From positions 1 through 59,145 of the forward strand of contig JAOABA010000014.1 in the NCBI GenBank assembly GCA_026418625.1: DNA of 59,145 bases, in the 5' to 3' direction. Positions within the stretch are counted from its first letter, which is position 1; the number at the start of each line of letters is the position of its first letter. This document shows, in pieces, positions 11,531 to 45,115 of this stretch. This DNA is from Candidatus Kapaibacterium sp. (GTDB taxonomy: Bacteria > Bacteroidota > Ignavibacteria > Kapaibacteriales > UBA2268). The notes below the pieces were generated by a model that saw only the letters and a program-made list of their open reading frames with translations, had not been told where the DNA came from and ran no database searches. Both the position numbers and the translations under genes were made by a program.

Positions 11531-12475
11531 ATGCCATTAATAAAAAAGTTAATTTTAATATTATTGCTATTATCATTAGAAGGAGGTCATCTTGGAGCGG
11601 TGAACACTCCTTTTCAATTTTTAAGGTTCAATTCTAATGCAAGGGCAGCTGGTATCGCAGGATGTTTTGAAGCTATGCCAAATGACCCGGGAGCAATATT
11701 TTTCAATCCTGCAGCAATTTCAACAGTTAATGAAAAGCATTTCTCTGCAACTTTTTTGAAACACGTTCTTGATATTAATTCTGGTAATGTGGTGTATGTA
11801 AGGAAATTTGAGGATATAGGAACATTTGGGGCTTCAGTATCTTTCACAAATTATGGTTCTTTTGTGAGGTCTGACAGATATGGAGCACAAATGGGAACCT
11901 ATGGAGCTAATGATATTGTGATTGCTGCCACCTATTCTAACCAGTTGGACACTAATCTTTATTATGGTATAAGTTTAAAATATTTATATAACAATATTGA
12001 CAAATATAATTCATCATCTCTTGCATTTGATGCCGGATTAATTTATCAAATACCTGACAGTAGAACAAATGTTGGACTATCTGTTCTTCACGCTGGAGCC
12101 CAATTATCGAAGTTCGTTGATTATTATGAGCCTCTTCCTTTGGATGTTAGATTGGGAATTAATAACAGATTACGTGGATTGCCTTTACTTGTAAACCTTA
12201 GTATTCATCATCTTGCTGACCAAACCGAAAATTTCTTTGATAAATTTTTGAATTTTTCAATTGGAGGAGAATTTTACTTTGGTGAGTATGTTCAGGCAAG
12301 GCTCGGATATGATAATCAAATCAGGCGAAAAGCGGCACCGCAGAATGACAAGCAGTTTACAGGGCTATCTGCAGGTGTTGGAATTAAGACAAGTTCAGTA
12401 AACGTAGATTATGCTATAGCACAATACGGTTATAACACTTTTCTTCATAGAATTGGTATTAATTTGGATTTTTAA
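11531..12475 (+). CDS. PorV/PorQ-family outer-membrane beta-barrel protein
   Basis: The 314 residues start with a signal peptide (basic MPLIKK then a Leu/Ile-rich core, cleaved near residue 23). The mature part opens with FQFLRFNSNARAAGIAGCFEAMPNDPGAIFFNPAA, described here by its conserved elements: the N-x-R-x-x-G-x-x-G start and the FNPA box of the PorV/PorQ/UPF0164 family. Alternating strands run to the end, as expected for a 14-strand FadL-like barrel. PorV and PorQ shuttle type IX secretion substrates. This copy is the closer match to PorQ in size (about 310-340), but the assignment between PorQ and unnamed paralogues is uncertain. Confidence 0.75.
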   Translation: MPLIKKLILILLLLSLEGGHLGAVNTPFQFLRFNSNARAAGIAGCFEAMPNDPGAIFFNPAAISTVNEKHFSATFLKHVLDINSGNVVYVRKFEDIGTFGASVSFTNYGSFVRSDRYGAQMGTYGANDIVIAATYSNQLDTNLYYGISLKYLYNNIDKYNSSSLAFDAGLIYQIPDSRTNVGLSVLHAGAQLSKFVDYYEPLPLDVRLGINNRLRGLPLLVNLSIHHLADQTENFFDKFLNFSIGGEFYFGEYVQARLGYDNQIRRKAAPQNDKQFTGLSAGVGIKTSSVNVDYAIAQYGYNTFLHRIGINLDF

Positions 12476-18997: not shown

Positions 18998-20674
18998 TTA
19001 AAACAAGCTATGATTACCGTTATCTTTTTCTAATTTCCTTTTTGAACTTTCAAAATGAGTCATTTGACTTCTACCGGGAATTGATGGTAATTTACCAGAT
19101 AATAATTCTTCAACGGTTAGAATTTGAATTTTTGGATTGTTAAAACCTTGGACTTTTCCTTGAGAATTAGCAGTGGACAGCATACCTTTAGTTGCGAATT
19201 CTTCGAAGCAGACAAAAATGCCCATATCGGCTTTTTGTTGATTAACGGTTTCAATAAAGGAACGTAAAGCAGCAATGTTGGTATTTCCACTTTTAACTTC
19301 GATGATTGCTGTTCCTTTAATTTTTCCGTCAGTGGATTTGCTAAAAGTGAAATAACCATCAAAGCCCTTGTCAGCGACTTTTTTTGGATTAGAAACGCCA
19401 CCGATAACAAATTCAATTATCCAATCTTGAAATTTGACTCTTCCTTTGTCACTCAAAGCTAATTCTTTGGCGGAAGCAATATCCTTGGGGAATCCATTAA
19501 TTTCTATATTTTGCAAAATTTCTTTCTTTTTCTCATCAGAATATGGGTCAGTCAGTCTTTTAAGAATTAATTTAACAGCTAAATGAGAAATATCAACACC
19601 GAGCCATTTTCTATTTAGTCTTTCAGCAACAGCAACGGTAGTGCCGCAACCACAAAAGAAATCAGCAACAATATCACCCTCTTGTGAAGAAGCGTTGATA
19701 ATTCTTTCGAGCAGAGCCTCTGGTTTTTGAGTTGGGTAGCCAAGACGCTCTGCAGCATGAGGTGAAATAGGTGGAATATCAGTCCATATTTCCTGAGCCG
19801 GAGCACCCTGCATAGTCTTTAAATATCTTTTAAAGCTTGGAGTGCCTTTTGATGTAAAATGAATATAACCATTTTTATCAAGAAACTCCAATTTCTGTAT
19901 GGTATTCATTTTATTATATTTTTTTTCACCAAGCAGTTTTATTAAAAATCTTTTTGGGACAGACCAACTACGTCCTCTTTCAGATGGATTATAACCTTTA
20001 TAAGGTTGATCATTTGGATTAACACCGGGACCAGTCAAATCACTCAACCTAAAACGCCCTTTCTTATCTTCAAATCTATAGAACTTTTTTAAATAGGACT
20101 CATCATATTGCATAATAACAGGTTTAAAGAAATATTCAGAGCTTTTTGAATAAAAAAGTATTCTATCAGCATTTTTTCCGAATCTTTTTGGGTCATTATG
20201 AGCGCTTGTTCTTTTCCAGATAATTTCATTAACGAAATTTTCGTAACCAAAAACCAAATCACATACTAACTTTAAATAATGACTCATTGTAGAGTCACAG
20301 TGTAAATAGAAACTTCCAGTTGAGTTTAAAACTTTGTGCATATACCAAATTCTGATAGCCATTGTTGTCAGATAGGAAACAGCACTTTTTGATATTCTAA
20401 TGTTATCTAATGCCAGAAGAAATTTATACAAATCGAGATTGATTGAATGAATTTCTTCAATTGTGTCATAATAACTAACATTACTCCAAGTGTCGGCAAA
20501 GGCTTCTTTTTGTGCTTTAGTATCGGATAAATCCAAGCTTTCGAACAAAATATTATAATTCCTCTTTGAATTAAAAGGGGGATCGATATAAATTAAATCA
20601 ATAAATCCATCGGGGAATTTTTTGTTTAGTTCTTTTAGAACATCAAGACAATCCCCAAAAAATAATTGATTCAT
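18998..20674 (-). CDS. site-specific DNA methyltransferase with restriction-endonuclease-like C-terminal domain
   Basis: The 558 residues open with QLFFGDCLDVLKEL and the catalytic motif IYIDPPFNSKRNY (DPPF, residues 32-35). The SAM-binding motif comes after it, in VADFFCGCGTTVAVAERL near 337. That order (IV before I) marks a beta-class N4-C/N6-A methyltransferase of the type III Mod-like kind. Residues about 420-530 look like a Mrr/PD-(D/E)xK fold: GFDGYFTF, then IIEVKSG, giving D...E-x-K. No separate endonuclease gene is adjacent. It may be a self-contained restriction-modification enzyme or a methyltransferase with a DNA-binding relic. Confidence 0.85.
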   Translation of the reverse strand: MNQLFFGDCLDVLKELNKKFPDGFIDLIYIDPPFNSKRNYNILFESLDLSDTKAQKEAFADTWSNVSYYDTIEEIHSINLDLYKFLLALDNIRISKSAVSYLTTMAIRIWYMHKVLNSTGSFYLHCDSTMSHYLKLVCDLVFGYENFVNEIIWKRTSAHNDPKRFGKNADRILFYSKSSEYFFKPVIMQYDESYLKKFYRFEDKKGRFRLSDLTGPGVNPNDQPYKGYNPSERGRSWSVPKRFLIKLLGEKKYNKMNTIQKLEFLDKNGYIHFTSKGTPSFKRYLKTMQGAPAQEIWTDIPPISPHAAERLGYPTQKPEALLERIINASSQEGDIVADFFCGCGTTVAVAERLNRKWLGVDISHLAVKLILKRLTDPYSDEKKKEILQNIEINGFPKDIASAKELALSDKGRVKFQDWIIEFVIGGVSNPKKVADKGFDGYFTFSKSTDGKIKGTAIIEVKSGNTNIAALRSFIETVNQQKADMGIFVCFEEFATKGMLSTANSQGKVQGFNNPKIQILTVEELLSGKLPSIPGRSQMTHFESSKRKLEKDNGNHSLF

Positions 20675-20917: not shown

Positions 20918-21433
20918 GTGGATAAAACTTTTGAAAGGAACGGGATACAATTTATTGATATTCTCGATGATGAAGAAATAATTCATTGGGGTGAGGGAGA
21001 TATCAAAATAGTTGGCTGTTCTTTACTTAATTCTTTAAATGAGGAATCAATCATTCTTGAGTGGGGCGAAAGAGTTAAGGTGATAATGTTAGCAAAAGCT
21101 TTTAAAGATGTTGAATGCGAACACATCGGGTTTGGTTTTAGCTTTAGGGATAGAAACGGACTTGATATAATAGTATCAACAACAATAGAAGAAGGAAAAC
21201 AATTTGGTCCTTTTTCAGAGGGTGATGAGGTAATAATTACATACGAATTTGAAAATATTATGGCACCCGGCGAGTATTTGCTGACATTTCAATCAGAGGA
21301 TAGAACTTATTATATGCCAAAGTATTATGATTTTGTTGAGAATGCAAAAATTTTTAAGGTAGTTGCAAACAAACGATTTTTTTCATTAACTCAACCAAGA
21401 ATTAATCAAACAATCAGTATAAATAAAAATTAA
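20918..21433 (+). CDS. stand-alone Wzt C-terminal-like carbohydrate-binding domain protein
   Basis: The 171-residue protein has no signal peptide. It matches the C-terminal domain of Wzt O-antigen ABC transporters: WGEGDIKIVGCSLLN, then ILEWGERVKVIMLAKA, IGFGFSFRDRNGLDI, and GPFSEGDEVIITYEFEN. In Wzt that beta-sandwich recognises the modified end of the finished polysaccharide before export. The ATPase domain that normally precedes it is missing. A TAA at 20906-20908 closes the frame upstream, so this is a complete small gene, not an unseen fusion. Start is GTG at 20918. It is followed after 20 bases by the giant methyltransferase-glycosyltransferase, which suggests a joint job in chain-end recognition. 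Confidence 0.75.
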   Translation: MDKTFERNGIQFIDILDDEEIIHWGEGDIKIVGCSLLNSLNEESIILEWGERVKVIMLAKAFKDVECEHIGFGFSFRDRNGLDIIVSTTIEEGKQFGPFSEGDEVIITYEFENIMAPGEYLLTFQSEDRTYYMPKYYDFVENAKIFKVVANKRFFSLTQPRINQTISINKN

Positions 21434-21453
21434 ATTGAAATTGAGGTAAAATT

Positions 21454-24400
21454 ATGTCTGATGATAAATTAGCGATAATAGAAACACAACCAAGACCAGA
21501 TATTTGGGACAATGTCGCTAAAGAATACAACTATGAAATAAATGATAATGAAAAAGAAATAGCTAATAGTCTGATAGAAATCCTACAGTGGCTCAAATTA
21601 CAAGATAATTGTAGTTTGATAGAACTTGGTTCTGGAAGCGGTCATATATCAGGTTTGCTAAATAAAGCTGGTTATAATGTAACGCTTCTTGATTTTTCTC
21701 AGACTGCTCTCGAGAAATCGAAGGAATTTTTTAATTATTATAACCTCGAGGGAAACTTCATAAATGGTGATATTTTTGATTTATCAAATATTGCCCCAAA
21801 TTACGATGTAGTCTGGAACAGTGGAGTAATGGAGCATTTCAGCGATGAAAAGCTATTGGACGCTCTCAAGTCAATCAAAAAAATTGTAAAGAAATATTTC
21901 ATTTTTCTTGTTCCTAATCCATTATCATTGCCCTATCTTCTCTTTCGTTATAAAAAAATGAGAGAGAATAATTGGCTATACGGAACTGAATATTTAAGAA
22001 AAGATTATGATATATTCCTTCGTAAAGCTGGTTTCAGAACAATAAAAAGACAATTTGCTGGATGGAATTTCACGAAGTATTTTATAAGCGGTGCTTATGA
22101 GTCAGAGGAAATTTATCAGTATTATAAAGATTTGGTGGATAATAATTTAATACCTGAGGAAAATGCTTATCTTGAAGTTTACATTACAACTATCGAAGAG
22201 TCGCCATTAGAAGCAGATATAAAAGACCTTACACTCAAAGACAGCCTTACCGAACTAAAGACAAAGAATTTTGATTTGATAGCCAAATATCAGGGCTTGA
22301 AGTCTTTAATAGAATCTCAAGGATATAGTTTAGATAACATAAAATCAAGTCAAACAGATAAGATACTAAATTTTAAAGATGAGCAAATATCTGCTTTAAA
22401 TAATGCGATAGAGGATTTAAGAAGACAGAACGAAGCAATAATCGAAGAAAAAGATAAAATCATAAATCTTAAGAATAATACACTGAAGGAAATTGAAAAA
22501 TATAATTTTAAACTTCAGGATATAATTATTGAAAATTATGTATCGATTTCACAAAAAGATGCTTTAATCAATAGACAAGAGGCTCTCATTTATGAAAAAG
22601 AAAATGAGTTAAGAGCAAAAGCTGAGAAAATAGCTGAAAAAGAAATTGAAATTTCAGAAATTCAGAAAAGCATAGATATACTAAAGTCGAATTTAGAAGA
22701 AAAGGAAAGAATAATTCTTGAAAAACAAAATCTAAGCGAATATCAGGCTGAAATAATATTAAATCAAAACAATATTTTAGAAGAAAAAGAGAATTTGATA
22801 AATACTCTTTCACAGAATTTAGCAGAAACCGAAAGAACTATCCAAGAAAAAGACCAAATAATTAACCAGATTAATCTTGAACTGCAGAATAATTTAAATT
22901 ACATTCAAGAACTTGAGAACAAACTAATAGAGAAGGATGATTCAATATCAAGACTTGAGACTGCTATTTCGGACAAGGATATTATTCTCAACCAGAAAGA
23001 TTTAGACCTTCAAATAAAGGATACTATCATTAATCAGAAAAATTTTGATATTTCTGAATTAAAAGTCTTTTTGGAGGAAAAAGAGAAATTAATCTCAGAA
23101 AAAGAATTACTGCTCGAGCAAAGAGATCATTTAATTGATTATCAAAAACAACTTCTTGATGAAAAGAATATTGAACTTCATCAGAAGGAAATTCAAATTG
23201 TTGAACGTGAAAAATTATTGAAAGAAAAAGATGAGTTACTGCTTCAGAAGGATAATTTGATAGCCTTTCAATATCAACAAATACTTGATAAAGACGAGCA
23301 ATTACAAAACATTGAGACAGAAATTTCGAACAAAAATATTCAAATTCAAAATTTAGAAGAAGCTGTAAATTTTCAGCTTAATTTAGTTAGTCAGAGAAAT
23401 ATTGAAATTAGTGAAATAAAGTCTCAACTCGATGAAAAAACATCAATAATTGAAAAGCAGGAAGAATTGCTCGATCATTTAGCATTTTTGGCAGAAGAAA
23501 GGAACAAACTCCTGAACGAGAAAGAGAACTTAATTATTGAAAGAAATAGGGCTATTGAAGAAAAAGAAGATTTTATCAATAAGCAATCATCTGTAATTAA
23601 AAAGGTAGAAGAGAATTTAGCTAATACAAGGCTTGAATTAATAGAAAAACAAAATTTAATTGCACAGCTTGAGTTTGAACTCGAATTTCGAAATGAGATG
23701 ATTCAAGATATGGACAAAGCTATATTCGAGAAAGAACAGCTTATTCAAAACAATACTAATCTCATTAATGAGTTTGAGGAAGAAATTTCGAAGCTTAACG
23801 AAGAATTGATTAAAAATAAGAAATTGCTTGAATATTATGAACAAAAGCTTGAAGACAAAGATGAGATTATTAATAATCAAAAATATGCCATAGACAATAA
23901 AGAAGAAACTATTTTTAATCAAAAAGAGAAAATTCAGCAATTCGAGAAAAAGATATTTGACTTAGAAGAAGAAATTGGAAAAAATAATCAGCTACTCAAC
24001 GAAACGCATTCTAAGCTAAAAGAGAAAATTGATGAATTATACGAAAAATCAATCAAGCTTTCAGAACTTGAGCAAATAGTTTCAGAAAAGAGTCAAATAA
24101 TTGAACTTAAAGACCAAATTATTTTAGATAAAGAGAATTTGATTGCAGAAAAGCTTAAAACGATAAAGGAGAAAGAAGAACTAATCGCTCAATATCAAGC
24201 TGTTATTAATGAGAAAGACAACACAATTTCTGAGAAAGACAGAGAATTAAATGATCAAATAAATAAAAACAACGTTAAAGACAAAATAATCGAAGAGAAA
24301 TTGGATATTATCAAATGGAAAGATTCTATTATTAGTGAGAAAGAAGTTGCATTAAAAATTTCAACTGAAACCATAAACCGACTCGATGAGCAGATTAAGG

Positions 24401-27400
24401 AACTCGATCAAAGCAATTTTGAAAAAGTTATGGCTCTTGCCGAAAAAGACCAAATAATAGCGAATAAAGATATAGCGATTCAGAATATAACTGCTCAAAG
24501 AGATTCAATGTATACCCAGCTTAATAATTTGTTCGCAAGTAGATCTTGGATGGTTGTTTATTACCTACAAAAATTAGACAAAATATTCCCCTTTTTAAAA
24601 TACCCTGTAATTTTTGCTTATAGATTATTCGCAACATATCCATCAAATCTTTGGAAATCGCTTAAAAAGTGGCGTGCACGCTCAAAATCGAAACATTTGG
24701 AGGGTTCAGGAACAAGCTTAACAAGTTTAGAAAAAGTAAATGCGGATGCTTTAAGGATGATTGAAAATCTGGAGCACAATGTTTCAATACCAAAATATGA
24801 TGTCATCTTCTTTGCAATTATTGACTGGGACTTTAGATATCAAAGACCTCAACATTTAGCTGCTGGTTTGGCTGCTAAGGGTCATCGTGTTTTTTATATT
24901 TCAGTTCAATTAGGTCAGGAAACAACAAATACATATAGATTGATTGAACCGAATGTGATAGAAGTAAAATTGCCCTATAAAACACAAACTGCTATCTACA
25001 CAGAAGATATCGCCTCAAATCTTGATGTACTAAAAGAAGCAATTAAGAAACTTTATCAGGAACAATCTATAAAAGAGGCAATAGCTTTTGTAGAATTTCC
25101 AATGTGGCAACCACTTGTGTCTTATGTTTCAAAGAAATTCAATGCAAAAGTAGTATTTGATGCCCTCGATGAATTCGCTGGATTTTCTAATTTAAACCAG
25201 AAATTGAAAGATTATCAGGACTTACTTATAAATACCTCAGATGTTATTATAGCTACGGCAAAGAAAATCTATAAAATGGTGAAAACCGACACCAATAAAG
25301 TTAATATGTTGCCTAATGCGACTGAGTTTAAGCATTTTAATGTTTTACCAGAAAATGATACTCTTGAAGCGATTCCGAAACCAATAATTGGTTATTACGG
25401 GGCAATAGCTGAGTGGTTCGATTCAGAAGTAATTGAATATGTTGCTGAATCTCGCCCTGATTGGAATATTGTTTTGATAGGTCACACATTTGGCTCTGAC
25501 ATCGAAAAACTCAAAAATATGAAAAACGTTCATTTTCTTGGAGAAAAGCCATATAAGGAATTGCCAAAGTTTCTTTATTGGTTTGATGTTTGTTTAATAC
25601 CTTTTAAACTTGTTGATTTAATTCTTTCAACTAATCCAGTTAAATTTTTTGAATATATAAGCAGTGGAAAACCAGTAGTAGCTTCTGACTTACCGGAGTT
25701 ACATCCATTTTCAGATATTGTTTATCTTTCTCACAACAAAGAAGAATTTCTCACTAATATTGAGAAAGCATTGGTGGAAAAGGATGAGAAGATAATTCAG
25801 AAAAGAATAGAAACAGCAAAAAATAACGATTGGGAGCATCGTGTTGCTAATCTTGAAAAGTATGTTATTGAAGGTTTTCCGAAAGTAAGTATTATAATTA
25901 TAAATAATAACAATGCAAAAAATCTTGAATATTGTATAAAAAATATATTAGAAAACACAGCTTATCCAAATTATGAAATACTAATTATTGATAATGCTTC
26001 GAATGATAATAGCCGAGATTATCTTTTAGCTCTTGAATCTAAATTTGATTTTATTAGGGTGATATATAATGAAAAGAATTTAGGGTTCATAAAAGCTAAT
26101 AATATAGGTATTAAAGAAGCAAGTGGGGATTATCTAATTCTTCTAAGTCCAGATGCAGTTGTTCCTAAGGGGTGGATTAACACAATGATGAAATATCTGA
26201 AAGATGAGACAATTGGGATGGTTGGTCCTACAACAAATATTAAAGGTAATCAAACTGCAACTAATATTGCATATAATTATTATGAAGAGTATCTTGATTT
26301 TGCTGAGAAGGTTCTCTACGAAAACTTTCATAGCTTCAGTGATATAAATGAACTTGGACTTTTCTGCACTATGTTTAGAAAAGACGTAGTAGATAAAGTT
26401 GGATTAATACCAGATGAAGGTGAAGAAACGGTTTATAACAAATTTGAAGAGTATGATTATAGCATTAAGATAAAAAATAGTGGTTTAAGACTCGTTTGTT
26501 GCAAAGATTTATATGTTCACGTCGGTGCTGGAAGCTTAAGAGAATTTCATCAAAAGGGACAGAAAAAAGTAGCAATTATTATTTTGTCATATAATTTACT
26601 TGATAAAACAACTAAACCTTGCATCGAAAGTATTTATAGCACCCGAACACATTGTGATTTTGAGGTTCTCGTCGTTGATAATCTTTCTACTGATGGCACA
26701 AGAGATTATCTTTTAAAAGCAAAAGACGAATACAAAAATCTAAGGCTTTTGTTTAATGAGCAAAATCTTGGTTTTGCAGGTGGTAATAATGCCGGAATGA
26801 AAGCAATAGAAGCAGATTATTATATTTTACTCAATAGTGATACAATAGTAACCGATTATTGGCTTGATAAGATTGTTGATTTTATGGAAACTCATCCGGA
26901 AGTTGGTATGGCAGGACCGGTTACGAATTCAGCCGGAAACGAGCAAATGATATATGTGAAATCAACAACAGAGGAAGAAATCATAAGAGAAGGGCTTGAA
27001 TGGGCAAATAAACATAGTAAAGATTACTTTTTTACTAATCTATTAGGATTCTACTGTGTAGCAATCAGGAAAGATGTATTGGATAATGTTGGCTATCTTG
27101 ATGAAGCCTATGGTGTGGGAATGTTCGAAGATGACGATTTTTCTATTAGAGTGATGAAGGCAGGATATAAACTTGCTGTTCTTGAAAATGTCTTTATATA
27201 TCATAAAGGTAGTGTTTCATTCAGTTCCCTTCTGACTGATGAATACAGGAACAGAACATTTTTCAAAAACCTGAAATACTATGAGCAGAAGTTCAATATA
27301 AAATGGAAGTCGAAGTTTAATACAGATACATTTGTTGAGGTCATTCAGCATTATTTAAGAAATATTGATGATTCAAATGCAGATAGGATTAAGGAAAAAA

Positions 27401-27510
27401 TTGCTAATAGACTTGAGATAATGAAAAACTTTGACTATGCTGGAAAAAATTTGGACAATATAATGCTTTGGCAACAAACATTACCAAAAGAACAAAGATT
27501 TATAGAATGA
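21454..27510 (+). CDS. giant methyltransferase - coiled-coil - GT4 - GT2 - GT2 fusion protein
   Basis: The 2018 residues fall into clear parts. Residues 1-250 are a SAM methyltransferase (IELGSGSGHISGLL near 56; VWNSGVMEHF). Residues about 263-1025 are Glu/Lys/Ile/Asn-rich coiled coil without Pro. Residues 1025-1080 hold an SRSWM motif and an aromatic amphipathic stretch, a possible membrane contact. Residues 1114-1470 are a GT4-like transferase (DFRYQRPQHLA; NPVKFFEY). Residues 1476-1700 are a GT2 domain with SPDA where the DxD is expected. Residues 1704-1960 are a second GT2 with NSDT and EDDD. Start is ATG after TTGAGG. It is probably a cytoplasmic, membrane-associated glycan-assembly enzyme. 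The ruler-like role is inferred by comparison with WbdD. Confidence 0.85.
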   Translation: MSDDKLAIIETQPRPDIWDNVAKEYNYEINDNEKEIANSLIEILQWLKLQDNCSLIELGSGSGHISGLLNKAGYNVTLLDFSQTALEKSKEFFNYYNLEGNFINGDIFDLSNIAPNYDVVWNSGVMEHFSDEKLLDALKSIKKIVKKYFIFLVPNPLSLPYLLFRYKKMRENNWLYGTEYLRKDYDIFLRKAGFRTIKRQFAGWNFTKYFISGAYESEEIYQYYKDLVDNNLIPEENAYLEVYITTIEESPLEADIKDLTLKDSLTELKTKNFDLIAKYQGLKSLIESQGYSLDNIKSSQTDKILNFKDEQISALNNAIEDLRRQNEAIIEEKDKIINLKNNTLKEIEKYNFKLQDIIIENYVSISQKDALINRQEALIYEKENELRAKAEKIAEKEIEISEIQKSIDILKSNLEEKERIILEKQNLSEYQAEIILNQNNILEEKENLINTLSQNLAETERTIQEKDQIINQINLELQNNLNYIQELENKLIEKDDSISRLETAISDKDIILNQKDLDLQIKDTIINQKNFDISELKVFLEEKEKLISEKELLLEQRDHLIDYQKQLLDEKNIELHQKEIQIVEREKLLKEKDELLLQKDNLIAFQYQQILDKDEQLQNIETEISNKNIQIQNLEEAVNFQLNLVSQRNIEISEIKSQLDEKTSIIEKQEELLDHLAFLAEERNKLLNEKENLIIERNRAIEEKEDFINKQSSVIKKVEENLANTRLELIEKQNLIAQLEFELEFRNEMIQDMDKAIFEKEQLIQNNTNLINEFEEEISKLNEELIKNKKLLEYYEQKLEDKDEIINNQKYAIDNKEETIFNQKEKIQQFEKKIFDLEEEIGKNNQLLNETHSKLKEKIDELYEKSIKLSELEQIVSEKSQIIELKDQIILDKENLIAEKLKTIKEKEELIAQYQAVINEKDNTISEKDRELNDQINKNNVKDKIIEEKLDIIKWKDSIISEKEVALKISTETINRLDEQIKELDQSNFEKVMALAEKDQIIANKDIAIQNITAQRDSMYTQLNNLFASRSWMVVYYLQKLDKIFPFLKYPVIFAYRLFATYPSNLWKSLKKWRARSKSKHLEGSGTSLTSLEKVNADALRMIENLEHNVSIPKYDVIFFAIIDWDFRYQRPQHLAAGLAAKGHRVFYISVQLGQETTNTYRLIEPNVIEVKLPYKTQTAIYTEDIASNLDVLKEAIKKLYQEQSIKEAIAFVEFPMWQPLVSYVSKKFNAKVVFDALDEFAGFSNLNQKLKDYQDLLINTSDVIIATAKKIYKMVKTDTNKVNMLPNATEFKHFNVLPENDTLEAIPKPIIGYYGAIAEWFDSEVIEYVAESRPDWNIVLIGHTFGSDIEKLKNMKNVHFLGEKPYKELPKFLYWFDVCLIPFKLVDLILSTNPVKFFEYISSGKPVVASDLPELHPFSDIVYLSHNKEEFLTNIEKALVEKDEKIIQKRIETAKNNDWEHRVANLEKYVIEGFPKVSIIIINNNNAKNLEYCIKNILENTAYPNYEILIIDNASNDNSRDYLLALESKFDFIRVIYNEKNLGFIKANNIGIKEASGDYLILLSPDAVVPKGWINTMMKYLKDETIGMVGPTTNIKGNQTATNIAYNYYEEYLDFAEKVLYENFHSFSDINELGLFCTMFRKDVVDKVGLIPDEGEETVYNKFEEYDYSIKIKNSGLRLVCCKDLYVHVGAGSLREFHQKGQKKVAIIILSYNLLDKTTKPCIESIYSTRTHCDFEVLVVDNLSTDGTRDYLLKAKDEYKNLRLLFNEQNLGFAGGNNAGMKAIEADYYILLNSDTIVTDYWLDKIVDFMETHPEVGMAGPVTNSAGNEQMIYVKSTTEEEIIREGLEWANKHSKDYFFTNLLGFYCVAIRKDVLDNVGYLDEAYGVGMFEDDDFSIRVMKAGYKLAVLENVFIYHKGSVSFSSLLTDEYRNRTFFKNLKYYEQKFNIKWKSKFNTDTFVEVIQHYLRNIDDSNADRIKEKIANRLEIMKNFDYAGKNLDNIMLWQQTLPKEQRFIE

Positions 27511-27599: not shown

Positions 27600-27908
27600 A
27601 TGGTTTCAAACTACTTAGTTGAAGCTCCTCAGATACTAAGATTCGGTCCGCACACGACTAATGCCGGTGTTGAATTTAATGTTCAACAAAATGGCGATTC
27701 AGTTATGTGGTTCAAGGTTGCTAACGGAAAAGGGACAATTGTTGTTAAATTTGATGAAGAAAGATTGAATTGCTATTTTGGTGGTGGAGATTTAATCACG
27801 TGTAGCATTCCAAAAAAATTCTTTGAGACACCGGGCGAGCATAAAATTTATCTTTTAGATACTGCCACTGGATTAACTTCAAACGTTGTTATTTTTACCG
27901 TAAAGTAA
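27600..27908 (+). CDS. small single-domain Ig/IPT-like protein, copy 1
   Basis: The 102-residue protein has no signal peptide, membrane span or Cys-rich motif. It is beta-rich: ILRFGPHTTNAGVEFNV, IVVKFDEERL, and the ending PGEHKIYLLD followed by GLTSNVVIFTV. The spacing of FGP, a strand with KFDE, PGEHKIYL and a final SNVVIFTV resembles one IPT/TIG-type immunoglobulin-like domain. It is clearly homologous to the next gene. It starts at ATG 27600 after CGGAGATAAA. Position directly behind the giant glycosyltransferase suggests a carbohydrate-binding or scaffold role, but no function is established. Confidence 0.65.
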   Translation: MVSNYLVEAPQILRFGPHTTNAGVEFNVQQNGDSVMWFKVANGKGTIVVKFDEERLNCYFGGGDLITCSIPKKFFETPGEHKIYLLDTATGLTSNVVIFTVK

Positions 27909-27961
27909 AAATTTTTTCCATAAAAATGTATGTTTAACTAAGATTTTCTTTTTTAAAAGCT

Positions 27962-28267
27962 ATGGATACTTTAAGTGGTTTCAATATGCCGAAGATTATT
28001 AATTTTGGACCCGTCAGTGTTAAAAGTGGTCAAGACTTTAATATTCAAACAAACGGAGAATCAGCTATTTGGCTTCAAACAACTGGAAATACCAATTCAG
28101 TAGTAGTAAAATTCGATGAAAAAAGTTTAAAGCCATTTTGTAAGGATAATTTACTAACTTGTAATATACCTAAAGAATTTTATCAAAAGCCGGGAGAGCA
28201 TAAAATTTATTTAAAAGATGAATCAACCGGACTAACTTCAAATGTTGTAATTTTTACTGTAATATAA
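27962..28267 (+). CDS. small single-domain Ig/IPT-like protein, copy 2
   Basis: The 101-residue product is a paralogue of its neighbour. It shares FGP near residue 16, FN-Q-NG, VVVKFDE, LLTCNIPK, PGEHKIYL and the identical TGLTSNVVIFTV ending. The N-terminal third differs (MDTLSGFNMPKI). It also lacks a signal peptide. The two genes are 53 bases apart and precede the UDP-sugar dehydrogenase by 7 bases, so all are likely on one transcript. It looks like a local gene duplication followed by divergence. Confidence 0.65.
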   Translation: MDTLSGFNMPKIINFGPVSVKSGQDFNIQTNGESAIWLQTTGNTNSVVVKFDEKSLKPFCKDNLLTCNIPKEFYQKPGEHKIYLKDESTGLTSNVVIFTVI

Positions 28268-28274
28268 AAAATTT

Positions 28275-29546
28275 ATGAAAGTATCAGTTTTAGGGCTTGG
28301 CTATGTCGGGCTTCCACTTGCTTGTGCAATAGCAAGAAAAACCAACAACCTTGTTGTCGGATTTGATTTAAACGAAAAAAAAATTGAGAAAATCAAAAAA
28401 AGGGAATGCCCCATTGATGACTATCAATGTGAACAGGATTTGAAAGAAGTCAATTTTGAGGTCTCTTCAAATCCAGAAATTTTGAATAATTCGGATATTT
28501 ATATTGTTTGCGTGCCAACACCAGTTCTGGATGATTATACACCAGATTTAGGACCGGTAAAAGGTGCCACATTGACGATATCAAAATATCTTAAAAAGGG
28601 GCAATCAGTGGTTATTGAATCAACTATTAATCCGGGTGTCTGCGATGAAGTTGTTAAACCTATTTTAGAGGAAAAAACGGGGTTAAAAGCCGGGATTGAC
28701 TTTGATATTGCCCATTGTCCAGAAAGAATCAATCCGGGTGACCCAAAATGGAATGTTTATAATATTCCGAGAAACATAGGTTCGACTAACACAGAAACAA
28801 CAAAAAGACTTGCTGAATTTTATAGGTCCTTTATCAGTGCTGAAATAAATGAAATGCCTGATTTGAAGACGACCGAAGCTACAAAGATAATTGAAAATAC
28901 GTTTAGGGATATAAACATAGCCTTTGTTAATGAGTTGGCTCGCTCTTTTGACGTGCTTGGAATTGATTTGATGACAGTCATAAAAGGAGCATCAAATAAA
29001 CCATTTGCATTCTTACCTCACTATCCAAGTTGTGGGGTCGGAGGACACTGCATTCCTGTTGACCCTTATTATTTGATTGAAAGGGCAAAGCAAAGCGGAT
29101 TTGACCATAAATTCTTGAAATTAGCAAGAGAAATCAATAATTCAATGCCCCATTATACGGTTGAGCTTCTATCTGAGGCTTTAAATCATTATGAAAAACC
29201 AATAAAGAATACAAAAATCTGCCTCTTTGGGTTATCTTATAAAGCCAATGTTGGTGATTTGAGGGAAAGTCCTTCGCTTAAAATTCAGGAAATATTATTG
29301 CATAAGGGAGCGGATTTATTGGTTTATGACCCATATTTCCCTGAATTAAGTTCTGTTAAATCCCTTGATGAAGCTCTTGAGAAAAGTTTTGCGATTGTGC
29401 TGGCTACTAATCACGATGAATTTAAATCAATTGATGCAGATAAATTAATTAAATCAGATGTCAAAATTGTGATTGACGGGAAAAATTTTCTAAACAAATC
29501 TGAAATTCAAAAATCAGGAATTTATTACAAAGGAATAGGCTCATAA
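28275..29546 (+). CDS. wbpA: UDP-N-acetylglucosamine 6-dehydrogenase (WbpA-like nucleotide sugar dehydrogenase)
   Basis: The 423-residue protein oxidises C6 of a UDP-N-acetylhexosamine to the uronic acid with NAD+. It shows the N-terminal Rossmann GLGYVGLPLA, VCVPTPV, ESTINPGV and CPERINPGDP. The catalytic Cys259 is in CGVGGHCIPVDPYYL. The C-terminal UDP-binding domain has GLSYKANVGDLRESPS. Sequence pattern is of the WbpA/WbpO/TviB type. WbpE, WbpB and WbpD homologues follow, so the substrate is probably UDP-GlcNAc, giving UDP-GlcNAcA for the diacetamido-uronate pathway. Confidence 0.9.
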   Translation: MKVSVLGLGYVGLPLACAIARKTNNLVVGFDLNEKKIEKIKKRECPIDDYQCEQDLKEVNFEVSSNPEILNNSDIYIVCVPTPVLDDYTPDLGPVKGATLTISKYLKKGQSVVIESTINPGVCDEVVKPILEEKTGLKAGIDFDIAHCPERINPGDPKWNVYNIPRNIGSTNTETTKRLAEFYRSFISAEINEMPDLKTTEATKIIENTFRDINIAFVNELARSFDVLGIDLMTVIKGASNKPFAFLPHYPSCGVGGHCIPVDPYYLIERAKQSGFDHKFLKLAREINNSMPHYTVELLSEALNHYEKPIKNTKICLFGLSYKANVGDLRESPSLKIQEILLHKGADLLVYDPYFPELSSVKSLDEALEKSFAIVLATNHDEFKSIDADKLIKSDVKIVIDGKNFLNKSEIQKSGIYYKGIGS

Positions 29547-29572: not shown

Positions 29573-30925
29573 ATGGATAATAATACGATTTTAGAAAAAT
29601 TAAAGATAGATAATGTCGAATTCATAAATCTGCAGTTTTCTGATATGATGGGTATGTCGAAAAGCGTAACAATACCCACATCAAAATTTCAGGATGTTCT
29701 GGTCCACGGTCTATGGTTCGATGGTTCTTCGGTTGAAGGTTTCACGAGGATTTTCGAAAGCGATATGCTCTTGAAGCCAGACTTGGATACTTATGCAGTT
29801 GTGCCTTGGTATTCAAATGGAACAGGTAATATTGCAAGATTTATTTGTGATGTATTTACTCCTGATGGCAATCCTTATGAATCGGATCCAAGATATATTT
29901 TGAAAAAGGTTGTTGAAGAAGCTCATTCAATGGGCTTTGAATATTATACCGGACCAGAACTCGAATTCTTCCTTTTCAGACGTGAAAATGGCAAGATCAA
30001 GACAGCTCAAAACAAGGTGATTGAACCTCACGATAGAGGACAATACTTCGATTTGGTTATGGACTTGGGCTTTGAAGTAAGGCGAGAGATGATGAATGCT
30101 CTCATTAAGATGGGTATTGATGTTGAAGCCAGCCATCATGAAGTTGCACCCGGTCAACATGAAATTGACTTTAAATATGATAAAGCCATTGTAACAGCTG
30201 ACAGAGTAATGACATTAAAATCAACCTTGAAAGCTGTTGCAGAAAGTTACGGTCTATATGCCACATTTATGCCAAAACCAATCGCAGGTATAAACGGTAG
30301 CGGTATGCACGTTCATCAAAGTTTATTTTCCCTTGATGGAAAAACAAACCTATTTTTTAACAAAGATGATAAATATAAATTATCCGAATTGGCATATAAT
30401 TTCTTAGCTGGGCAGATGCATCATATAAAAGCTATGGCAGCTGTTTTGAATCCAACAGTAAATTCTTATAAGAGGCTCGTTCCCGGTTACGAAGCATCAA
30501 CTTATATCTGCTGGGCACAGACAAATAGATCAGCTTTAGTTCGTGTTCCAATGTATAGCGCAGGCAAGGACAAAGCTACGAGACTTGAAATCAGATGTCC
30601 TGACCCTTCTGCGAATCCGTATCTGGCTTTTGCAGTATTATTAAAAGCTGGACTTGATGGAATTAAGAACAAAATGACTCCACCACCACCGGTAGAAGAA
30701 GATGTTTACGAATTTAATTTTTCGGAATTAGAAGAGAGAAATATTGATTTTCTGCCGTATTCCCTTTGGGATGCAGTCCACAAATTGAAAAAGAATGAAC
30801 TTATCCAATCTGCTTTAGGTCCCGATTTGACAAAAAAATATATAGCAGCTAAAGAGCAGGAATATGAGCAGTTCAGAATATCAGTGACAGATTGGGAAAT
30901 TAATAATTATTTAGAAAATATTTAA
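29573..30925 (+). CDS. glnA: glutamine synthetase type I (GSI-alpha)
   Basis: The 450-residue enzyme makes glutamine from glutamate, ammonia and ATP. It shows WFDGSSVEGF at the N-terminus, GPELEFFLF with metal-ligand Glu residues, HHEVAPGQHEIDF, the ATP-site KPIAGINGSGMHVHQSL and NRSALVRVP. The size and the lack of the adenylylation-loop region near the end point to the GSI-alpha form. The gene sits 26 bases after wbpA and 31 bases before wbpE on the same strand, in the middle of an amino-sugar pathway. Whether it is the main cellular glnA or a dedicated copy cannot be told from this window. Confidence 0.95.
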   Translation: MDNNTILEKLKIDNVEFINLQFSDMMGMSKSVTIPTSKFQDVLVHGLWFDGSSVEGFTRIFESDMLLKPDLDTYAVVPWYSNGTGNIARFICDVFTPDGNPYESDPRYILKKVVEEAHSMGFEYYTGPELEFFLFRRENGKIKTAQNKVIEPHDRGQYFDLVMDLGFEVRREMMNALIKMGIDVEASHHEVAPGQHEIDFKYDKAIVTADRVMTLKSTLKAVAESYGLYATFMPKPIAGINGSGMHVHQSLFSLDGKTNLFFNKDDKYKLSELAYNFLAGQMHHIKAMAAVLNPTVNSYKRLVPGYEASTYICWAQTNRSALVRVPMYSAGKDKATRLEIRCPDPSANPYLAFAVLLKAGLDGIKNKMTPPPPVEEDVYEFNFSELEERNIDFLPYSLWDAVHKLKKNELIQSALGPDLTKKYIAAKEQEYEQFRISVTDWEINNYLENI

Positions 30926-30956
30926 GAATTTGAGATATTTACATTAAGGATTTTTG

Positions 30957-32069
30957 ATGCAGTTTATTGATTTAAAAAGGCAATATGCCAGAATAGAAGA
31001 AGAAGTCCAAGCGGGTTTCAGAAGGATTTGTGAAAACGCCCAATTTATAATGGGAAGTGACATTTTAAAGTTAGAAGTTATGTTAGCTGATTATGTAGGG
31101 CGAAAGTATTGTCTTTCTTGTTCATCCGGAACTGACGCCCTATTAATTCCATTAATGGCTTGGGGCATAGGAAAAGGAGATGCGGTTTTCACAACGCCAT
31201 TTACTTTCATTGCTACCTCTGAAGTTGTTGTTCTAACTGGAGCTACTCCTATTTTCGTTGATATAGATAGAAAGACCTACAACATTTCTACTTCTGATTT
31301 AGAAAGAGTTATTGAAAAAACAATCAGCGAAGGTAAGTTAACACCCAAAGCAATTATACCGGTTGATCTTTTTGGATTGACAGCAGATTATGATGAAATA
31401 AACAGAATTGCAAAGAAATATAATCTATTAGTATTAGAGGATGCAGCTCAGGGTTTCGGAGGAGTCTATAAGGGTAAAAGAGCCTGCAGCTTTGGAGATG
31501 TAGCAGCTACTTCATTTTTCCCCGCTAAACCTTTGGGATGTTATGGAGACGGAGGTGCTGTATTCACGGACGATGAAAATTTAATTGAAATTTTTAAATC
31601 AATAAGAATTCACGGGCAAGGCTCAGACAAATATGATAATATAAGAACCGGTATAAATGGAAGGCTTGATACTTTACAAGCAATAGTTCTAATCGAAAAA
31701 TTAAAAATTTTCGATGAAGAATTAGAAAAACGAAATCAGGTTGCAAAAAAATATGGTGAGTTGCTTAAAAACAAATTGGTTGTTCCATTTATTCCTGATG
31801 ATTGTGTCTCATCTTGGGCACAGTATTCAGTTCTTGCCGAAAGTGCGTGGCATCGGTCGGAATTGCAGCAAAAATTAAAAGAAAATGATATTCCAACAGC
31901 TATATATTATCCAATACCACTGCATTTACAAACAGCCTATAAAAAATTGGGTTATAAAAAAGGTGATTTTCCCATTTCAGAGGAAATTGCATCAAGAATT
32001 TTCAGTTTACCAATGCATCCTTATTTGACAGACGAAGAAATTGAATTTATTTGCTCTAAAATAAACTAA
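30957..32069 (+). CDS. wbpE: WbpE-like UDP-2-acetamido-2-deoxy-3-oxo-glucuronate aminotransferase
   Basis: The 370-residue DegT/DnrJ/EryC1/StrS enzyme is PLP-dependent. The internal-aldimine Lys is K191 in SFFPAKPLGCYGDGGA. Other landmarks are QFIDLKRQYARIEEEV at the start, LSCSSGTDALLIPLMA, LEDAAQGFGG and GRLDTLQAIVLIEKL. These closely follow WbpE of Pseudomonas, which moves an amino group from glutamate to C3 of UDP-3-keto-GlcNAcA. A TTG one codon earlier is open, but ATG at 30957 is preferred. WbpB and WbpD homologues follow directly. Confidence 0.9.
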   Translation: MQFIDLKRQYARIEEEVQAGFRRICENAQFIMGSDILKLEVMLADYVGRKYCLSCSSGTDALLIPLMAWGIGKGDAVFTTPFTFIATSEVVVLTGATPIFVDIDRKTYNISTSDLERVIEKTISEGKLTPKAIIPVDLFGLTADYDEINRIAKKYNLLVLEDAAQGFGGVYKGKRACSFGDVAATSFFPAKPLGCYGDGGAVFTDDENLIEIFKSIRIHGQGSDKYDNIRTGINGRLDTLQAIVLIEKLKIFDEELEKRNQVAKKYGELLKNKLVVPFIPDDCVSSWAQYSVLAESAWHRSELQQKLKENDIPTAIYYPIPLHLQTAYKKLGYKKGDFPISEEIASRIFSLPMHPYLTDEEIEFICSKIN

Positions 32070-32113
32070 AATTAAAGTATGCCGATTATAAAATTGGTTT
32101 TATAAGGGAATAT

Positions 32114-33055
32114 ATGAAGAACTTTGCAATAACGGGCGTTGGAGGGTATATAGCACCGAGACACCTTCAGGCAATTAAAGATACCGGCAATAGACTTGTA
32201 GCGGCTGTTGACATACACGACTCAGTTGGAATTCTTGACAGATTCTTCCCAGATGTCAGCTTTTTTACGGAAATAGAAAGGTTCGATCGCCATCTGGAAA
32301 AATTAAGAAAGCATTATCCTGAAGATAAAATAGATTTTCTTTCTATATGCTCACCAAATCATTTACACGATGCCCACATCAGATTAGCACTTAGACTACA
32401 CGCTGACGCAATTTGCGAAAAACCTTTAGTAATAAAACCTTGGAACCTTGACGCTCTCGAAGAACTTGAAGAAGAAACTGGCAGAAAGGTTTATAATATT
32501 TTGCAACTCAGAGTTCATCCCGCATTAATTGACATCAAGAAAAAATTTGCAAAAACGAAAAAAAAGCATGATGTTGTATTGACTTATATAACTTCTCGAG
32601 GTCCTTGGTATAAATATTCATGGAAAGGTGACATCAAAAAATCTGGTGGAATTGCAACTAATATTGGGATTCACTTTTTTGATTTTTTAATGTGGGTTTT
32701 CGGCAAAGTTCAAAACAGTGAAGTTCATCTTTATGCCGATGATAAGATGGCTGGCTATATTGAGCTTCAAAATGCTAATGTTCGCTGGTTTTTATCAACT
32801 GATAGATTTGATTTACCACAAGAAGCTTTGGACTTAAATCAATCAACATACAGATTAATAACTGTAGATGGTGATGAAGTTGAATTCACAAAAGGGTTTA
32901 CGGACCTCCATACTGTTGTTTATCAGGAAATTCTTGACGGAAAAGGCTTTGGAATATCTGATGCCAGACCTTCGATAGAACTTGTATATAAAATTAGAAA
33001 TTCGAATGTTGAAAATAAATTTGATTATTTACATCCTTTTCTATTCAATAAATAA
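32114..33055 (+). CDS. wbpB: WbpB/WlbA-like UDP-GlcNAcA 3-dehydrogenase (Gfo/Idh/MocA)
   Basis: The 313-residue oxidoreductase starts with FAITGVGGYIAPRHLQAIKDTGN. That pattern of a Rossmann GxGGYIAPRH is diagnostic of WlbA/WbpB. CEKPL near residue 105 is the Gfo/Idh catalytic-Lys segment. WbpB oxidises C3 of UDP-GlcNAcA and recycles its tightly bound NADH with 2-oxoglutarate, which the neighbouring WbpE regenerates from glutamate. The two genes are 44 bases apart here, consistent with that coupling. Confidence 0.9.
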   Translation: MKNFAITGVGGYIAPRHLQAIKDTGNRLVAAVDIHDSVGILDRFFPDVSFFTEIERFDRHLEKLRKHYPEDKIDFLSICSPNHLHDAHIRLALRLHADAICEKPLVIKPWNLDALEELEEETGRKVYNILQLRVHPALIDIKKKFAKTKKKHDVVLTYITSRGPWYKYSWKGDIKKSGGIATNIGIHFFDFLMWVFGKVQNSEVHLYADDKMAGYIELQNANVRWFLSTDRFDLPQEALDLNQSTYRLITVDGDEVEFTKGFTDLHTVVYQEILDGKGFGISDARPSIELVYKIRNSNVENKFDYLHPFLFNK

Positions 33056-33070
33056 ATAATATAAGGTTTT

Positions 33071-33655
33071 ATGGGATATTTCAAACACGAGTCAGCATAC
33101 GTTGATGAAAATGTCGAAATCGGAGACGGAACAAAAATTTGGCATTTTTCACACATTCAATCCGGAGCAAAGATTGGTAAAAATTGTGTTCTTGGACAGA
33201 ATGTAAATGTCGGAAACAACGTAAAAATTGGAAATTTTTGCAAAATTCAAAACAATGTATCGGTTTATGAGGGAGTTGAACTCGAGGACTATGTCTTTTG
33301 CGGTCCTTCAATGGTTTTCACTAACGTTATCGACCCAAGATGCAAATATCCTCAGGTTGGAAGCAAATTTTATTTAAAGACTTTAGTCAAGGAAGGTGCT
33401 TCCATTGGTGCAAATGCGACAATTGTATGTGGAGTAACAATTGGAAAAGCTGCTTTTATTGGAGCGGGGTCGGTAGTAACAAAAGATATCCCTGATTTTG
33501 CTTTAGTCGTTGGTGTTCCCGGAAAAGTCGTTGGATGGGTAAGCGAAGCCGGCAAGAGATTAAACTTTGATGAAAACAACACAGCATACTGTGAAAAATC
33601 TGGTGTAACTTATAAATTTGATGGTCAAAAGGTAATTGAACTTTCAAGAGATTAA
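33071..33655 (+). CDS. wbpD: WbpD/WlbB-like UDP-3-amino-sugar N-acetyltransferase
   Basis: The 194-residue protein is a left-handed beta-helix acetyltransferase. Hexapeptide repeats run from VDENVEIGDGTKIWHFSHI through KIGKNCVLGQNVNVGNNVKIG. The sequence then continues with FTNVIDPR, the long loop typical of WbpD/WlbB, and ends with a coil plus IPDFALVVGVPGKVVGW. It acetylates the 3-amino group to give UDP-2,3-diacetamido-2,3-dideoxy-glucuronate. This completes the WbpA-B-E-D set. The 2-epimerase WbpI, which would give the manno form, is not in the window. Confidence 0.9.
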   Translation: MGYFKHESAYVDENVEIGDGTKIWHFSHIQSGAKIGKNCVLGQNVNVGNNVKIGNFCKIQNNVSVYEGVELEDYVFCGPSMVFTNVIDPRCKYPQVGSKFYLKTLVKEGASIGANATIVCGVTIGKAAFIGAGSVVTKDIPDFALVVGVPGKVVGWVSEAGKRLNFDENNTAYCEKSGVTYKFDGQKVIELSRD

Positions 33656-43822: not shown

Positions 43823-45115
43823 TTGATAAAAATTATTAAAAAAATTTTCAATTTACCTATTATTAAAGTATCCTCAATGACCTCTATTTCGACGGCAGTG
43901 AGGATGCTAACTGCTTTTATAAGCACAAAAATTGCAGCTATTTTAATCGGACCTCCCGGAGTGGCACTTGTTGGGCAACTGCAGAATTTTTCATCCATCG
44001 TTATGGCGATTGCTACTGGTGGAATAAACACTGGTGTAACGAAATATGTTGCTGAATATAAAAATTCAAAAAATAAAGTCAGACTATTTATAAGCACAGC
44101 TTTAAGAATTAATTTGTTCCTATCGGCAATAGTTGGTTTGTTAATGATAATCTTATCATCATATCTTTCACAAAAACTATTTCATACTTATGATTATCAA
44201 ATTGTTCTGATAATTTTTGGCTTTACAATTATATTATATGCTCTAAATACACTACTTCTTTCGATTTTGAATGGTTTTAAAGAATTCAAAAAATATGTTA
44301 TAATAAATATTGTTGCCAGTCTTACAGGACTTATTTTTTCAGTTAGTTTAATATTCCTTTTAGGAATTTTAGGTGCTTTGATTTCAATTGTAACTTATCA
44401 ATCGGTAGTTGTTGTAGTAACAATAATAATGTTAACAAAGACAGAATGGTTTAATATAAGCTATTTCAAATTTGGCTTTAGCAAGATTGCTTTAAAAAAG
44501 TATCTTGGATACACATTAATGGTTTTAGTTTCAGCTTTCACAGTTCCAGTAGCATCAATAATAATCAGGAATTACATAACTACTCATTTATCATTGAATG
44601 ATGCAGGGATTTGGGAAGGGATAAATCAAATTTCTGCTATAGTATTTATGTTTATTAATACGACTTTAATAACATATTATATCCCACGATTATCCGAATT
44701 GAAAGAAAAAAAAGATTTAAAAAAAGAGATATATACTACAGCTAAACTTGTTTTACCAATAACATTTATAGCTTGTGCACTACTTTTTTTTTTAAGAGAC
44801 ATTGTTATCAAGATTTTATTCTCTTCAGATTTTTTGTTGATGCGTGAGTTGTTCCTTTTTCAAATGATAGGTCTTTTTTTGAAATTGGCAAGTTTTCTAA
44901 TAGCTACATTAATGCATGCTAAAGCAAAAACAAAAGAATTTGTAATTACTGAAATTTTATTCTCAGCAATAAATGTAATCCTTGCAATATTATTTATTAA
45001 TATTTACGGATTAGTTGGAGTTACAATTGCTTTTACAATCAATTATCTTCTTTACATAATCACAATGATATTTATTTTTCGTGATATTATTTTTTATAAG
45101 CCTGCTACTCCTTAA
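43823..45115 (+). CDS. wzx: Wzx-type polysaccharide flippase (O-antigen translocase)
   Basis: The 430-residue protein has about 12 membrane spans of the MOP/Wzx superfamily. STKIAAILIGPPGVALVGQLQNFSSI in the first span region and GGINTGVTKYVAEYKN in the next loop match WzxE-like translocases. It would flip an undecaprenyl-diphosphate-linked repeat unit across the inner membrane. Start is TTG at 43823. An ATG 18 codons later (MTSISTAV) is also possible and would keep the first span. It ends 11 bases inside the convergent carbonic anhydrase gene. Confidence 0.88.
   Translation: MIKIIKKIFNLPIIKVSSMTSISTAVRMLTAFISTKIAAILIGPPGVALVGQLQNFSSIVMAIATGGINTGVTKYVAEYKNSKNKVRLFISTALRINLFLSAIVGLLMIILSSYLSQKLFHTYDYQIVLIIFGFTIILYALNTLLLSILNGFKEFKKYVIINIVASLTGLIFSVSLIFLLGILGALISIVTYQSVVVVVTIIMLTKTEWFNISYFKFGFSKIALKKYLGYTLMVLVSAFTVPVASIIIRNYITTHLSLNDAGIWEGINQISAIVFMFINTTLITYYIPRLSELKEKKDLKKEIYTTAKLVLPITFIACALLFFLRDIVIKILFSSDFLLMRELFLFQMIGLFLKLASFLIATLMHAKAKTKEFVITEILFSAINVILAILFINIYGLVGVTIAFTINYLLYIITMIFIFRDIIFYKPATP

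Follow-up and report, generated by a model that had tools for sequence, protein, structure and literature searches.

Two adjacent genes on the forward strand of contig JAOABA010000014.1 (assembly GCA_026418625.1, Candidatus Kapaibacterium sp.) encode a free-standing domain of the Wzt type and a protein of 2018 residues in which a methyltransferase, a long heptad-repeat rod and three glycosyltransferase (GT) modules are joined. The whole stretch analysed, 59,145 nucleotides, is referred to below as the window. The two genes and the parts of the larger product are as follows.

20918..21433, plus strand: gene for a free Wzt C-terminal (carbohydrate-binding) domain, 171 amino acids, GTG start (Pfam PF14524; domain match 20984-21373).
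21454..27510, plus strand: gene for the 2018-residue methyltransferase - heptad rod - GT4 - GT2 - GT2 protein (one open frame; Pfam).
21502..22098, plus strand: class I S-adenosylmethionine (SAM) methyltransferase domain, residues 17-215 (Pfam Methyltransf_25/11/12/23; extent from a small profile of our own).
22441..24522, plus strand: rod of heptad repeats, residues 330-1023 (a single register kept through 100 heptads).
24523..24678, plus strand: hydrophobic/amphipathic linker after the rod, residues ~1024-1075, a candidate membrane-facing segment (hydrophobicity and moment profile).
24769..25857, plus strand: GT4-type glycosyltransferase domain, residues 1106-1468 (Pfam Glyco_trans_1_4; extent from our own profile).
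25870..26544, plus strand: first GT2 domain, residues 1473-1697 (Pfam Glycos_transf_2, best stretch 1479-1648).
26554..27252, plus strand: second GT2 domain, residues 1701-1933 (Pfam Glyco_tranf_2_3, 1706-1918).

An earlier note on this DNA had described one 2018-residue frame with a SAM methyltransferase, a GT4-like and two GT2 domains, and both the open frame and Pfam bear this out. Methyltransf_25 matches residues 56-147 (6.7e-12); the wider limits given above come from a profile that includes the window sequence itself. Glyco_trans_1_4 covers residues 1320-1415 (1.7e-7), alignment to relatives placing the start of the GT4 domain near residue 1106, and the NCBIfam family TuaH matches the GT4 region partially, below its cut-off. 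Glycos_transf_2 matches the protein in two stretches (6.6e-53, the best at 1479-1648). The second GT2 domain keeps the 'NSDT' and 'EDDD' stretches when aligned with relatives; in the first, 'SPDA' and 'EEYD' stand in place of the 'NSDT/NNDT' and 'EDDD' of four aligned sequences. The absence of a kinase domain was likewise confirmed: no Pfam kinase match was obtained in the at most ~115 residues between methyltransferase and rod, the kinase of WbdD comprising 249 residues. A search of PDB sequences at 1e-6 returned seven distinct sequences, all matching the GT2 part only. With an N-terminal terminating-enzyme domain, a coil and C-terminal GT modules, the protein is, on its predicted activities, one of the single-chain format.

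The 171-residue product of the upstream gene is, as judged from its Pfam match, a Wzt C-terminal domain: PF14524 scores 78.1 bits, above the gathering cut-off of 30.4, and the match runs over nearly the whole profile (4-134 of 143). By Pfam the gene holds Wzt_C alone, with no fused ABC (ATP-binding cassette) ATPase domain. Its end is separated from the ATG of the 2018-residue frame by 20 bases, so that the free domain reported at that distance was indeed found there. The gene preceding it, encoding an N6/N4 DNA methylase (18998-20674), sits on the opposite strand, which makes the Wzt_C gene the first of its gene run. That it is what remains of a longer Wzt was considered and rejected, as the open frame measures 174 residues and the upstream gene is oppositely oriented. 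No further Wzt_C place was found in the window genome. Across the phylum, frames shorter than 260 residues hold 3 of the 60 Wzt_C places listed, the window's own included; free copies therefore look uncommon. The free domain had no match among PDB sequences at 0.1, and an AlphaFold model made without relatives had a pLDDT (predicted local distance difference test score) of 37, too poor for use.

Residues 330 to 1023 of the larger protein (694 residues, ~103 nm at 0.1485 nm per residue) keep a single heptad register for about 100 heptads. A rod of ~760 residues and ~110 nm had been proposed; its length and regularity stand, with a smaller extent and an atypical heptad. When the hydrophobic phase was followed with at most one successive missed heptad, the run comprised 101 heptads, the last of which (residue 1030) is a miss, while none of 1000 composition-preserving shuffles exceeded 26. 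The core phase is occupied by Ile, Leu or Val in 94 of 100 positions between residues 326 and 1025. Position 'a' carries Ile or Leu in 91 of 100 heptads. At 'd', 46 have Lys and 25 a hydrophobic residue, and at 'g' a hydrophobic residue occurs in 46. Because 'd' is mostly lysine the rod is not a textbook coil, and its heptads run unbroken despite a 'd' position that is 46% Lys, compared with the canonical parallel trimeric coil of WbdD in its O9a form. The period-7 hydrophobic amplitude is 7.6, shuffles (200) reaching at most 2.9. A COILS-like score, the probabilities of which are only indicative, called 85% of residues 261-1040 coil; shuffled sequences averaged 50% and reached 71%. Much of that signal therefore stems from composition, and it is the register, counted independently of the score's weights, that carries the argument. 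A check for breaks in the coil found this one register held throughout, with no Pro from residue 252 to 1045 and a sole Gly (Gly842) between residues 291 and 1083.

Taken together, these features make it probable, with a fair margin of doubt, that the 2018-residue protein would combine the roles of glycan polymerase, ruler and terminator in one chain, in the manner of ABC-transporter-dependent assembly. This reading is suggested by the domain order, which matches the format of O7 ORF6 and O12 WbbB (see below), and is supported by the 101-heptad register, far beyond chance. With the enzymatic activities and cap chemistry that we infer here, the C-terminal GT4 and GT2 modules would extend a lipid-linked chain, the hydrophobic segment that follows the rod keeping these modules at the membrane. 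The ~103 nm rod, in a presumed oligomeric state and as a putative ruler, would keep the N-terminal methyltransferase distant from the growing chain end, and only chains reaching the rod's far end would be O-methylated and stopped. The free Wzt_C protein would then bind the methylated end and would act in trans on a Wzm/Wzt transporter for export.

The fused terminator-coil-polymerase format is already published. Only E. coli O9a had been compared in the earlier note; the fusion it proposed is a plausible reading of the domains but not a new one, since K. pneumoniae O7 ORF6 and O12 WbbB already combine these modules (PMC11231755). In the passages of that paper drawn on here, O7 ORF6 is described as a single protein made up of a methyltransferase, a kinase, a carbohydrate-binding module (CBM)-like domain, a coil and two GT2 modules, while in O12 one polypeptide, WbbB, performs both polymerisation and termination; the coil is regarded as a marker of the strategy, and some ORF6 relatives have C-terminal GTs. 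Like the window protein, ORF6 places its methyltransferase at the N-terminus, the coil in the centre and GT2 modules at the C-terminus of one chain; the ORF6 locus is of the ABC-transporter type. It differs in that the kinase and the CBM-like domain separate its methyltransferase from its coil and its GT modules number two (766-1140 and 1141-1414), whereas the window protein, likened to it by description, is without a kinase match, has an additional GT4, measures 2018 residues and adjoins a free Wzt_C. WbbB also unites terminator, coil ruler and polymerase (PMC11231755), but its terminator is a Kdo (3-deoxy-D-manno-oct-2-ulosonic acid) transferase rather than a methyltransferase and its GTs belong to families 99, 102 and 103. 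In the E. coli O9a and O8 systems a terminating methyltransferase likewise rides on a coil ruler, but the polymerase, WbdA, is a separate protein and the ruler measures ~20 nm in O9a (PMC5082667) against ~103 nm in the window. The O9a form of WbdD carries a kinase between methyltransferase and coil that the window protein lacks; the O8 form caps without one, methylating sugar hydroxyls (PMC3482155). What sets the window locus apart is the length of its rod (100 heptads), the odd 'd' position in it and the separate gene for the putative cap-reading domain. No rod of ~100 heptads and no natural free Wzt_C was found in searches of open-licence papers.

Geobacillus stearothermophilus WsaE, in which a methyltransferase and two GT domains are associated with terminal O-methylation (PMC2943079), offers another precedent. 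By this analogy the glycan would be protein-bound, of the S-layer type, with the methyltransferase terminating, the GTs polymerising and Wzm/Wzt exporting, while chain length would be set otherwise and the rod would serve to space or anchor. Methyltransferase and GTs are common to both proteins, as likened by description, and the window protein adds one GT and the rod. The parts of PMC2943079 consulted describe no ruler and no coil for WsaE, the word 'coil' itself not having been searched there. Moreover, the window rod is kept gap-free between two species over the comparable part (see below). This alternative seems quite improbable.

The nearest named relative of the polymerase-ruler-terminator candidate was found among plasmids. 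The GT part alone, compared with 72,556 plasmid records at 1e-40, matched three, from Paenibacillus cellulositrophicus, Paraburkholderia fungorum and Azospirillum argentinense; four plasmid neighbourhoods (H1, H2, H3 and H5) were examined. The Paraburkholderia protein, WP_253045733.1 (1157 residues; plasmid NZ_CP099648.1), consists of a methyltransferase (Pfam 56-137), a predicted coil (242-413), a GT4 and a GT2. It thus shares the domain order of the window protein, with 32-38% identity in the GT part, and its coil is likewise followed by a similar hydrophobic stretch (by eye). It differs in its 172-residue predicted coil and single GT2; its function is predicted. Its gene directly follows adjacent Wzm and Wzt genes, and there the Wzt_C is fused to Wzt. 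The coil, having no single heptad register, may be viewed as a looser counterpart, for it is a tandem-repeat array: positions 11534-11958 of the locus (L077) hold 3.1 copies of a 138-base unit with 97% matches, the repeat of 46 residues being no multiple of seven. Coil length may therefore have changed recently. The Azospirillum match is a GT4-GT2 protein, at a locus that also encodes a Methyltransf_24-coil-GT2-GT2 protein (1090 residues), a Wzt containing Wzt_C and an ABC permease. No methyltransferase match was obtained in the Paenibacillus protein, and the annotation shows no polysaccharide ABC transporter up to 12 kb from it. Of the three records matched collinearly over GT4 and GT2 at 1e-40, two encode a Wzt containing Wzt_C in the neighbourhood examined.

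The free Wzt_C was used as a separate query against the same 72,556 records at 1e-3. A single match was obtained, and it is the Wzt beside WP_253045733.1 (27% identity, 1e-10). For comparison, the Azospirillum Wzt_C domain matched 42 records at this threshold and the Paraburkholderia domain two, itself included. That two separate window queries meet at one locus is the strongest indication that the rod protein and Wzt_C share a glycan; it supports a common role of the predicted pair, as one locus and not as a statistic. The domains, their order, the heptad register and the adjacency of the genes are seen directly, as is the same pairing in one other organism.

Closer relatives were sought in genome contigs. 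A scan with the rod protein gave two loci, one a weak GT match and the other (L009, CALHRB010000045.1) from a Candidatus Kapabacteria metagenome-assembled genome of the same genus (G001), in which the window order of rod gene, two small genes and sugar genes is repeated. The same heptad pattern was found in this protein over the 400 residues counted. Rod residues 630-1010 are identical in 298 of 381 positions with zero gaps, compared with 343 of 364 for GT4 and 197 of 228 and 226 of 241 for the two GT2 domains. The rod thus appears to drift in sequence yet stay gap-free, as for a spacer of kept length. The apparently shorter coil of L009, where query residues 310-2018 are matched in 4.2 kb, was rejected as a length variant since the contig begins inside this frame and the alignment is gap-free. 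Contig C362, which stops beyond the counterpart of the phosphatase gene upstream in the window, is probably the other side of the break.

Among 60 relatives the GT part matched 21 genomes at 1e-20, collinear throughout only in the window genome and G001; among 395 phylum genomes (two candidates scored per genome) 23 matched at 1e-40, at full length only in the window genome, with a match across both GT2 domains in G385. The methyltransferase part matched 10 of 296 phylum genomes at 1e-9 (at most eight candidates scored per genome); the window genome alone has it within a long frame, the nine others being stand-alone enzymes as judged from their frames of 221-350 residues. Giant multi-GT frames of other kinds were also encountered: a 3009-residue protein combining tetratricopeptide repeats with five GT stretches, three of Glycos_transf_2 and two of Glycos_transf_1 (L017:2167-11196, contig C28 of G000), and multi-GT2 frames of 2623-3744 residues in G019, G033, G035 and G021. 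Two Wzt_C loci of the phylum encode 784-residue proteins with a 168-residue coil, a GT2 and an N-terminal part without Pfam match (L100:5053-7407 and L097:7396-9750), in L100 directly 3' of Wzt; they are another candidate terminator-ruler-polymerase type.

Downstream of the rod gene the window continues, on the same strand, with the following genes.

27600..27908, plus strand: 102-residue small protein, loosely Ig/TIG-like in its predicted model (97% identical to its counterpart in the same-genus locus L009).
27962..28267, plus strand: 101-residue paralogue of the 102-residue protein (50% identity between the two).
28275..29546, plus strand: nucleotide-sugar dehydrogenase (NCBIfam TIGR03026, 4.8e-120).
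30954-32069, plus strand: DegT aminotransferase (Pfam/NCBIfam).
32114-33055, plus strand: Gfo/Idh oxidoreductase (Pfam/NCBIfam).
33071-33655, plus strand: hexapeptide acetyltransferase (Pfam/NCBIfam).
43823..45115, plus strand: Wzx-type flippase, ~16 kb downstream of the rod gene (Pfam Polysacc_synt, 1.6e-16).

The aminotransferase, oxidoreductase and acetyltransferase (30954..33655) form a set that we take to resemble a diacetamido uronic acid pathway; with the dehydrogenase, their position beside the rod gene suggests such a sugar in the glycan. A type I glutamine synthetase gene (29573-30925; NCBIfam TIGR00653, 530 bits) lies within this run, its position in L009 being occupied by a 450-residue frame. 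The two small paralogues (27600-28267), between rod gene and sugar genes, are conserved in L009; the model of the 102-residue protein has a pLDDT of 68, and Foldseek gave no match for it at 0.001 or better. Other genes of the window include a formyltransferase domain fused to ankyrin repeats in the glycan gene run (42626-43714) and a gingipain-like protein (Peptidase C25; 50401-54411) that weakly matches a type IX secretion tail and adjoins a PorV-like gene. The DNA methylase divergent from the Wzt_C gene has an NA-iREase1/Mrr-like C-terminal part and is possibly a restriction-modification or defence gene.

Several observations weigh against the view that the rod protein is a polymerase, ruler and terminator serving an ABC transporter. 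No O-antigen-type Wzm/Wzt transporter was seen in the window, and its gene run holds the Wzx-type flippase (43823-45115), a rival export route. With 'd' mostly lysine, a canonical coiled coil is not assured. The whole protein matched 181 plasmid records in a tblastn search at 1e-15, none of them over 80% of its 2018 residues, and the Paraburkholderia coil rests on the COILS-like score, which is only indicative, its longest single-register run being 11 heptads. Close relatives amount to two genomes of one genus, and the G001 copy is cut inside the rod by the contig end, so that neither methyltransferase nor Wzt_C was seen for it. A recognised methyltransferase-coil-GT protein was present in none of the 20 Wzt_C loci read among the 60 places listed in the phylum, a count made with insensitive profiles built from 3 to 5 sequences, the Wzt_C profile having missed several loci and Pfam having been run on three proteins. 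Three of these 20 loci (L084, L097 and L100, two from one genus) have a coil-plus-GT2 protein without Pfam methyltransferase. Co-occurrence with Wzt_C was seen at the Paraburkholderia locus and, with these insensitive profiles, not in the phylum sample.

These points might instead be ascribed to a flippase-dependent surface glycan, for which the protein would be a multi-domain GT, the methyltransferase would decorate the repeat unit or an internal sugar, the rod would be a scaffold and Wzt_C a stray glycan-binding accessory. Such a scheme fits the flippase and the other polysaccharide genes that share its strand, as well as the lack of a visible O-antigen-type ABC transporter in the window; besides, more giant multi-GT proteins occur in the genome and its family, and no long coil was scored in these. 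Yet the closest architecture elsewhere, that of Paraburkholderia, adjoins Wzm/Wzt with the closest Wzt_C, 100 heptads in one register exceed the needs of a loose linker, and the published methyltransferase-coil-GT protein is, in the passages cited of PMC11231755, a terminator. A flippase-dependent glycan appears on balance unlikely, though less so than the WsaE-like enzyme.

For the ABC-dependent polymerase-ruler-terminator the question is then which transporter would be used. Four ABC2_membrane places were found in the window genome, three above cut-off, and the genome's only O-antigen-type pair found, which opens contig C1, consists of a Wzm and, after it, a 619-residue Wzt. A further point of difficulty is that this Wzt has its own long C-terminal part (380 residues, two similar stretches by eye) without a Wzt_C match. 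The proposal of the earlier note that the polymerase has 'its own end-recognition domain' goes beyond what was seen: a free Wzt_C presupposes a transporter, the window showed none of this type, and the single such Wzt found in the genome lies elsewhere with a different C-terminal part. Among 60 relatives a full-length homologue of the C1 Wzt at 1e-60 occurs only in G001, where the Wzm/Wzt pair and the rod gene are on different contigs and the pair has a methyltransferase-like gene and what by eye is a flippase gene in its vicinity; five other relatives match the ATPase part only, four of them carrying Wzt_C in-frame, one of these below cut-off. The co-occurrence of rod protein and unusual C1 Wzt in the same 2 of 60 genomes, the window's own included, was set aside as evidence because one genus only is involved. 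The cap-reading domain may therefore be separated from Wzt in this genome and may, perhaps, partner the C1 transporter. Separation of the two functions has an experimental precedent, the carbohydrate-binding C-domain of Wzt restoring export in trans when expressed separately (PMC9445017). It seems conceivable, though somewhat doubtful, that end recognition is split here, a free cap-reading protein from the terminator's operon acting in trans on a distant transporter while the ~103 nm rod sets chains several-fold longer than in O9a.

If the assignment is correct, the coil ruler would be extended from ~20 nm to ~100 nm, and the system would show whether glycan length still scales at such a distance; if it does so as in O9a, the chains would be several times longer. 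The free Wzt_C would represent a natural case of a cap-reading domain acting in trans, so far an experimental result obtained with separated Wzt domains (PMC9445017, in the part cited). The Paraburkholderia relative, with its 138-base tandem coil, comes from a cultured strain, and its coil length may vary naturally.

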